From Acytostelium subglobosum LB1 (lineage: Eukaryota; Evosea; Eumycetozoa; Acytosteliales; Acytosteliaceae), in NCBI RefSeq assembly GCF_000787575.1, contig NW_012236532.1, forward strand, positions 1,282,070 to 1,343,261: a DNA stretch of 61,192 bases. The letters run 5' to 3'. Positions 29,349 through 32,064 of this stretch are shown here, one piece after another (positions within the stretch are counted from its first letter, which is position 1; each line of letters begins with the position of its first letter). Position numbers and translations under genes: made by a program. The notes beneath the pieces are model-generated. The model was not told the DNA's origin and did not search any database. It was given only the letters and a program-made list of their open reading frames with translations.

Positions 29349-30601
29349 TCATACCAGAATCAAATTCTTGTTGGTAACAACCGCCTCTCCTCTGGAGAAT
29401 CCAAGGACACTGATGATCTTACCAGAGTGAGTGCCAACGAGCAATGACAGCTCTTTACTGCTGTAGTTTGAAATACCACGGGATATCTCTTGGCGATTTA
29501 AGTCCATAATCGATACCAGTGAGTCACAGTCAAACTCTCCAATCACTTGTACTACACCAACCGGAAGCAATGACTTGGCACGCTGACTGATCGCCTGAAC
29601 AGCGCCGTCATCAATGACCAGTGTTCCTTTCGGTTCGACAAAGTACTTCTTCTGAAGCATTAGAGTCTCTGATGCAACAATGTCACTGCTGCTGCTTGAG
29701 GTGGCAGTGAGGGGTGAGTCGGCCGTCATGCCGTTTGTCTTTCCCTCATGGTGGTAGGGGATGTTGTGGATGCGCATCATCTCCAACACCCTTGTCTCGA
29801 GTTCAAACACGTGTTCGTCACTGACCTCCATCTTTCTAAGACTAGCAGCCAGTTTGAGAAGATAGTCGAGGTTCCTGCCACTTGGACCTACTGATCGGAA
29901 TATTTGATTGGCTATGTTGTCCATCGTGTCATCGCCCAAGTACTCTTCGTTCAATGTAGTTGCTACATAGAGAATCGCTTTTCTAATGATATGTTTGAAG
30001 CAGTTGCGAATGTAAGACATTGAATTCCTCCAACTGATGATAGTAATGATGCTAGATTGCAAAGGGTCTACCTCGGATACATACCCATGCGATCCTTCCT
30101 TGCCATTAATAAATATGTCAGTCTCTATTCGTTGATAGCCACCTTTCTCGCGATAGTCCAAATTCTTCAGTATCACCTCTGCCTCTTCGTCAGGAATACA
30201 GTAAACAGTTCCCCAAGTGATCCAATCATCCTTTTCATAGTCGTCAGGTTGTTTGATAAGTGTTACTACTCGACCTGGTGCATCCTATAATGTTGTTGTT
30301 TTTGTTGTTGATGATGTTAGTACTGACTGATGCATTGATTAAAACAAGATAATTATCTACATACGGGAGTACCTCTGTGATCAGTACTACCTTGATAGAA
30401 CATTCTTTTATAGCCTTTGATATAGGCATTGAACTTTCTGATGAAGGGGAAACCCTGTATTATTGATATAATGATGGATGTTATATAGAAGTAATGTTAG
30501 TCTACTTTGAATGAATGATATTGATTAATCAACAGTGATCATACAGGTCTCCATAATATGCTTCCATAGCCAAACAAGTAAACTAGAAAGTCCTCACACA
30601 T
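29349..30601 (-). CDS. ChaC-type gamma-glutamylcyclotransferase fused to a glutamate-5-kinase PUA domain
   Basis: Four exons: 30601..30545, 30454..30365, 30284..30085, 29982..29349; about 326 residues. The third intron (30084..29983, 102 bp) is a multiple of three and stays open, but splicing it (GTATGT..ATTAG) restores the ChaC core exactly. Residues 1-190 are ChaC: glycine loop FGYGSILWRPGF, YQGSTDHRGTP, APGRVVTLI, the catalytic-glutamate segment LDYREKGGY, then AILYVAT, VGPSGRNLDYL and DEHVFELE. ChaC enzymes split glutathione to 5-oxoproline and Cys-Gly in the cytosol. After a Ser-rich linker, residues 233-326 match the C-terminal PUA domain of bacterial-type glutamate 5-kinase (GTLVIDDGAVQAI, KSLLPVGV, EISRGISNYSSKEL, HSGKI..VLG). 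No kinase domain is present. Both parts lie in one uninterrupted exon across the junction. Confidence 0.9.
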
Positions 30602-30837: not shown

Positions 30838-32064
30838 TTAATCGCATGATACCAACCCTGGTTCGTCTTCCTTCCACCTACAAAAGTTACATTGTCTTGA
30901 ACTACTAATGTTTTCTAAATGAAGTAGATAACCAGAACATCTGGTACGTGGATTACGACATGTGTAGGCTGCCACTGCATTCTCTATTGCTGGAGTGGTG
31001 TGCAGACATCGTTGGCATCCACAAACAAAGTAGTAGCAATCACTCAGTAGAGTCCTTCTGTCACACTGTCGCAGTGTGACATTGATGTAGCAAATGGTCA
31101 CCTCTTCGTTTGGTTCTATATCGCGAAGGGCCACAATCTCTATCGATCGTCCTTTTTGTAATCTTGCTGCATTTGGATAGCAACTATGATTGAAGAATGA
31201 AGCTGTACAATACATTGACAATCCAAAACATTCTTCGTAGTTCTTCCAAATGCTAAGATCGATTGATATTGTAAACTATCGTAGTTAGTAGCTAATCTTT
31301 GAGAGACAGAGTGTGATATCCACACAATAGTGAACATACCCAAAACAATTCCTGGTGGACTTTGCTATCAGCTCCATGACATCAGTTTCCTTTAGATCGT
31401 ACATGGCCAATGAGAAGGCCTTCTTGATGACAGAGCTCATTTTACGTAGAGTCTTCTTGTCCTCCTTTTTACCGCTAACCTGTTGATGCTCGCCAACTAA
31501 CAATGACATGTCATCTTTGATGAGTGGAAACTCTGGGTCTGTGCCTTGGTAGGGCATGTATGGTGTCTGAGCAATATAGTTGATGACCATGCGCATCTCT
31601 GACACATGATGAAAAGAGAACCCTGATGGGATGACCAAGTACTTGAGCACCAGACACTCGAGTACAGTGTGATAGTGTGATGCTGGAGATGTTGGATCCA
31701 CCTGATTGTTGCCACGCTTTGAATAATGACCGGCATCGTAGCAGCTCTGTGAACAGTAGTACACCTGCTGACATGTCTTGCATCCAATGTAGAGTTTGGC
31801 ATTGTTGTTTGCCATCTGTTGTCGAAGATCACTGTGAGCGAAACAATGTGAACACATCTGCTTGATAAGATAGGGCAGCCATCCAAAGCAATGTGGTGAT
31901 TCAGCTGTGAGTATTCTCGTTCCAGGCACTATCTTCCTCGTAGCAATGATATATCGTCCTCTGTCCTCACTCTTGATCACAGACAGACAGTGTTGTCCAT
32001 CAGCATCGACATTATCTGCTTTGTTGACTAAAACGTCAATTCTCTCGTCTTGTATAGTTGACAT
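30838..32064 (-). CDS. SMYD-like SET/MYND-domain protein
   Basis: Two exons, 32064..31340 and 31252..30838, with an 87-bp intron in phase 2; about 379 residues. The split-SET N-terminus (DRGRYIIATRKIVPGTRIL) is followed by a MYND zinc finger (CSHCF...CKTCQQVYYCSQSCYDAGH), an insertion, the SET core with FFNHSCYPNA and EEVTICYI, and a post-SET zinc site (CGCQRC plus a later CNFC). This is the SMYD order; such proteins methylate lysines of histones and other proteins. The S-adenosylmethionine-binding NHSCxPN motif is intact, so activity is likely. Start chosen at 32064, the first ATG in frame. It lies 80 bp downstream of Qtrt2 on the same strand. Confidence 0.88.

Follow-up and report, generated by a model that had tools for sequence, protein, structure and literature searches.

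A ChaC enzyme fused to a glutamate 5-kinase-type PUA domain in Acytostelium subglobosum and other dictyostelids

The ChaC-PUA gene and its product

The stretch of DNA analysed here (the window) comprises 61,192 nucleotides of contig NW_012236532.1 of Acytostelium subglobosum LB1. On its minus strand, from position 30601 to 29349, lies a gene with four exons and three introns encoding 326 amino acids and a stop codon, which almost certainly joins a ChaC domain to a PUA domain of the type found in ProB, the bacterial glutamate 5-kinase (G5K). The features of the gene are the following, P0001 being the public A. subglobosum protein.

30545..30601, minus strand: exon 1, encoding the Met-Cys-Glu-Asp N-terminus, the first strand and the glycine loop FGYGSILWRP; splice donor GTATGATC
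30455..30544, minus strand: intron 1, 90 bp, GT-AG
30365..30454, minus strand: exon 2, ChaC
30285..30364, minus strand: intron 2, 80 bp, GT-AG
30085..30284, minus strand: exon 3, ChaC, with the catalytic Glu95 within LDYREKGGY
29983..30084, minus strand: intron 3, 102 bp, GT-AG, in frame and with no stop codon; spliced out in P0001
29349..29982, minus strand: exon 4, end of ChaC, linker, linker helix and G5K-type PUA; stop at 29349

Both domains are readily recognized in P0001. The ChaC profile PF04752 covers residues 8-182 (187.4 bits against a cut-off of 21; profile positions 2-174 of 176) and the PUA profile PF01472 residues 235-309 (62.4 bits against a cut-off of 24.8), while the ProB profile TIGR01027 aligns residues 229-324 with its positions 267-362 of 363 at an E-value of 1.9e-21, the next PUA model reaching 6.3e-5. 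A significant ProB-PUA match had been set beforehand as the test of a sequence-only reading of the window, which had placed ChaC at residues 1-190 and the PUA at residues 233-326; the match was obtained by a wide margin, and these ranges are correct within a few residues. That reading had also seen no kinase part, and indeed no PF00696 (amino-acid kinase) match was found in the fused protein at an E-value of 0.01 and TIGR01027 matches positions 267-362 only; because the kinase part is absent, the TIGR01027 whole-family cut-off (186 bits) is missed. In the four fused proteins scanned, PUA models other than ProB score far lower.

The ChaC part retains an intact glycine loop (FGYGSI) and, as had been read, an intact catalytic Glu, Glu95 aligning with Glu83, the residue mutated in the human ChaC2 entry 6ky1. 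It is followed by a low-confidence Ser/Thr-rich linker (about residues 190-214), a linker helix (215-230) and the PUA (about 230-326), which compares with the G5K crystal structure 2j5v at a root mean square deviation of 1.0 across the whole PUA length to the C-terminus. A chance PUA match is ruled out by the profile scores and this structural comparison. In the fused protein P0041 the TIGR01027 match starts at profile position 251, upstream of the PUA, suggesting that the linker helix was acquired along with it. Just after ChaC, at about residues 186-196, a PLPHHTHPSL-like stretch can be found in many environmental fusions and a His-His pair in several dictyostelid ones, forming a His cluster.

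Compared with ChaC2 (PF04752; human 6k95, 6ky0 and 6ky1; yeast 5hwi), the fused protein adds the C-terminal linker and PUA, and its family has a Met-Cys-Glu/Gln start and ten ChaC positions of its own, including Arg25, Phe27, Thr48, Val76 and Asp155. With ProB (TIGR01027; 2j5t, 2j5v, 4q1t and 8zpj) it has the whole PUA in common, but it lacks the amino-acid kinase domain. When 63 fused PUAs were set against 86 ProB PUAs (P0009 and P0047, whose C-termini are odd or cut, being excluded), 17 positions were shared at 80% or more in both, whereas others, including Ser248, Gln249, Arg250 and His301, are nearly fixed in the fused PUAs only. Archaeal APE0525 and the RNA-acting Cbf5/dyskerin, TruB, ArcTGT, Nip7 and NSUN6 match far more weakly in sequence than ProB, RNA-binding PUA proteins having the fold alone in common with the fused PUA.

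Regarding the gene model, all three introns start with GTATG and end with AG. Since exon 4 encodes residues 116-326, the junction between ChaC and PUA falls within a single exon, in agreement with the sequence-only reading. Residues 1-325 of the predicted product are identical to P0001, which at its 3' end has 15 extra residues in place of the final Val and the stop. This tail is present in none of the 21 other rows of a 22-row alignment, the complete rows of which end in LIL followed by V, L or I, or nearly so, matching the stop at 29349; the latter, already proposed, is therefore the better end, and the public protein seems to be mis-spliced there. P0003 and P0051, gene models without part of the protein, were excluded from alignment A2. 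Intron 3 has a length divisible by three and no stop, so that an open-frame view runs through it and yields a 360-residue model; retention of this intron would insert 34 residues into the ChaC domain.

Spread and origin of the fusion

A first homologue search returned 456 proteins at an E-value of 0.001 or lower among 3084 candidates, the best 120 of which were examined, and the first 58 of these 120 carry both ChaC and PUA. A search with the 22-row alignment (6498 proteins at 1e-10 or lower among 7997 candidates scored; best 120 examined) adds nine more, P0128-P0136, giving at least 67 fused proteins. Named holders are A. subglobosum, Cavenderia fasciculata, Polysphondylium violaceum, Dictyostelium citrinum, D. 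purpureum and Tieghemostelium lacteum; P0041 and P0033 are EukProt transcriptome proteins, and most of the remaining fusions are on short environmental contigs, taken to be transcripts. Among the matches listed (the best 120 per search), a protein of Planoprotostelium fungivorum has ChaC without PUA and no fusion was found in named bacteria. Since six named dictyostelids and both transcriptome proteins carry the fusion, an artefact of assembly or gene modelling is ruled out, and one joint transcript is backed by these two proteins together with the other dictyostelid gene models. The fusion gene is thus real and conserved. ChaC can be found in another fusion, in P0170 (Myxococcales), where GNAT acetyltransferase domains are joined to it.

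The sequence-only reading knew of no described fusion of this kind, and none was found in the open-licence literature searched by titles and abstract openings, which is weak evidence of absence. However, public names and annotation already reveal the two halves: the Cavenderia and Tieghemostelium proteins are called 'PUA domain-containing protein' by NCBI, several fused proteins, including the entries of these two genera, are called 'glutathione-specific gamma-glutamylcyclotransferase' in UniRef, and precomputed Pfam annotation of fused proteins already shows the two domains.

Two trees bear on the origin of the fusion. The ChaC tree, built by a quick search under a simple model, holds 132 domains, namely 26 fused ones hand-picked from 60 and all 106 unfused ones; the fused domains cluster with an SH-like approximate likelihood ratio test (SH-aLRT) value of 95, and an unfused transcriptome protein, P0141, is nested inside, reflecting either a single gain with one loss or truncation of its transcript. 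The PUA tree (105 columns) holds 25 of the 63 fused and 24 of the 86 ProB PUAs, also hand-picked, and places all 25 on one side of a branch, with all 24 ProB PUAs on the other (96/94). It has long branches (P0126, P0136, P0052 and P0054), and the ProB sample is narrow, comprising the best 80 of 247 loci from one gammaproteobacterial ProB query and 6 others. Together, these trees suggest that the PUA was most likely gained once, from a ProB, in an ancestor of dictyostelids and some relatives, a single origin being their simplest reading. What weighs against it is the placement of P0128-P0136, which group with P0054 in the ChaC tree and with the dictyostelids in the PUA tree, the forks that place them carrying no star in either. 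A recent event confined to Acytostelium is ruled out by the spread and by both trees.

The PUA could have been kept as a passive passenger, retained for folding or stability only. ChaC is a complete domain when unfused, PUA-less ChaCs are common, and P0141 sits without a PUA among fused rows, all of which would fit a passenger. Nevertheless, the PUA has been kept across diverged lineages, with the fixed positions of ProB as well as lineage-specific ones, which makes a mere passenger rather improbable.

The PUA domain in a kinase-free context

The proteins with which the fusion might work were sought in the 56 contigs of the genome assembly, exon by exon and in all six frames; a piece missing from the assembly could hide a gene. 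Among control genomes, 12 of 14 exceed the ProB cut-off, and the result for ProA is the same. PF04752 matches nothing other than the ChaC-PUA gene, which leaves the fusion as the sole ChaC seen in this genome. PF01472 matches three places, the fusion and two others that by reading of their frames are Cbf5 and an MCT-1-like gene. Neither ProB nor a P5CS kinase was found, TIGR01027 matching only the PUA of the fusion and, with 36 bits, another amino-acid-kinase gene. PF00696 matches five places, none of them read as G5K: from their frames rather than by profile, they are an aspartate kinase beside a homoserine dehydrogenase, an acetylglutamate kinase, an isopentenyl-phosphate-kinase-like gene and two acetylglutamate-synthase-like genes. 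For ProA only weak matches were obtained, of 27 and 25 bits where the cut-off is 317. An alternative route to proline is offered by an ornithine aminotransferase gene (443 bits) together with one for P5C reductase (106 bits), both present in the genome. The P5C reductase frame (L110:871-2574) continues into a low-complexity tail of some 240 residues rich in Gln, Asn, Asp and Arg. Regarding glutathione, the genome has a hydantoinase_B gene (702 bits), taken for a 5-oxoprolinase, as well as a match to gamma-glutamyltransferase that is split into four pieces.

These searches bear on the proposal that the PUA docks on G5K and thereby couples glutathione turnover to proline synthesis. The PUA is indeed of the G5K type, but no G5K or P5CS kinase and no ProA to go with it was found in the assembly, proline can be reached by the other route, and in G5K itself the PUA sits in the same chain as the kinase; moreover, we know of no precedent for a PUA docking on G5K in trans. 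Docking, as put forward by the sequence-only reading, is therefore disfavoured and appears very improbable. With no G5K partner found, the link to the proline pathway which that reading had drawn holds as the ancestry of the PUA and is not supported as a working connection.

The reading that we favour, tentatively and as somewhat short of probable, is that the protein is an active ChaC2-like enzyme with the PUA as a regulatory or assembly module in cis. The ChaC part would be an enzyme of the ChaC2 kind, predicted to convert glutathione to 5-oxoproline and Cys-Gly; the ancestor of dictyostelids and relatives would have gained, at the C-terminus, the linker helix and PUA of a bacterial-type G5K, and selection would have retained the PUA. 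By analogy with G5K, in which catalysis proceeds without the PUA while kinetics and the formation of higher oligomers are set by it, ligand-dependent self-association through the PUA may control ChaC activity. Enzyme activity, selection on PUA function and the in-cis role are what we infer here.

In G5K from E. coli, the higher oligomers driven by proline need the PUA, whereas feedback inhibition does not (PMC6099280); the PUA of ProB affects activity and allostery but is dispensable (PMC10380284). The crystal entry 2j5v contains, according to its title, pyroglutamic acid, i.e., 5-oxoproline, the product of ChaC.

The retained PUA could instead bind mRNA or tRNA, either localizing glutathione breakdown or making the enzyme a moonlighting regulator. 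Two points weigh against giving preference to control in cis: analogy supports RNA binding about equally well, E. coli ProB being the precedent (PMC10380284), and a kept fold says nothing of which function was retained. However, the RNA binding of ProB, although specific, is weak and is not mapped to the PUA, and the non-ProB PUA models score far lower, as described above. Position 248 is Lys or Arg in 66 of the 86 ProB PUAs but Ser in 98% of their fused counterparts, which thus show no simple increase in positive charge, and the A. subglobosum PUA is acidic, with an isoelectric point of 5.7 (medians of 6.6 for fused and 5.7 for ProB PUAs). RNA binding is consequently held to be possible but on the unlikely side, and control in cis, whether by assembly or by ligand, is favoured over it by a small margin.

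The breakdown of cytosolic glutathione by ChaC is generally regarded as being controlled via the amount of enzyme. A conserved fusion, with no other ChaC found in the genome, is a naturally occurring ChaC to which an extra domain has been added, and some species of the group are genetically tractable. The job of the G5K PUA in bacteria is itself unsettled (PMC10380284); the fusion sets this domain in a kinase-free context, where its own function can be separated for testing.

The conserved Met-Cys N-terminus

Wherever the start of a fused protein is readable, in all 57 cases, Met-Cys stands a few residues ahead of the first ChaC strand; it forms the first residues of 54 proteins and lies inside a longer predicted start in the other three (P0042, P0043 and P0129). 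Position 3 is Glu in 47, Gln in 7, Leu in 2 and Gly in 1, and at position 4 Asp or Gly occurs in 56 of the 57. The other 10 of the 67 were left out as unreadable because FGYGS is absent or preceded by fewer than five residues; nine are plainly cut or start within the domain, and the tenth, P0035, begins MYIFGYGS and is an exception to the rule if this is its true start. Only two of the 106 listed ChaC-only proteins have a Met-Cys start, P0117 out of register and P0090 (MCFPKLTMWVFGYGS) in register; the latter would pass the pattern, its inner Met coinciding with the usual start of its relatives. P0141, which has no PUA, has no Met-Cys either.

Such a start may be a signal for acetylation or an N-degron. 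The genome encodes a PCO/ADO thiol dioxygenase domain (120 bits), ATE1 with both of its domains, and UBR boxes at 14 or more places, which makes a Cys N-degron possible. The Met-Cys start, rather than the PUA, might then be the main control via the Cys/Arg N-degron: Met would be removed, Cys oxidized by the thiol dioxygenase and the protein degraded, so that glutathione breakdown would follow oxygen or nitric oxide. The constancy of the start and the encoded machinery speak for this, but basic or aromatic residues following Cys are preferred by human ADO and acidic ones disfavoured, whereas NatA favours acidic residues (PMC11199558), and the fused starts, mostly Glu or Gln and then Asp or Gly, have no basic or aromatic residue following Cys as ADO prefers. 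If the amoeba enzymes share these preferences, N-acetylation is a better guess than oxidation, and control mainly by the N-degron is accordingly lowered to a distinctly doubtful proposition. Both ends of the protein could also contribute, the PUA sensing 5-oxoproline, proline, glutamate or RNA and thereby switching ChaC assembly or activity, and Met-Cys setting the lifetime of the enzyme by oxidation or acetylation; such a dual control is conceivable, with a low probability.

Beyond the 5' side of the fusion gene, the neighbouring gene on the minus strand has an exon encoding a SET domain (30838-31275; 45 bits).
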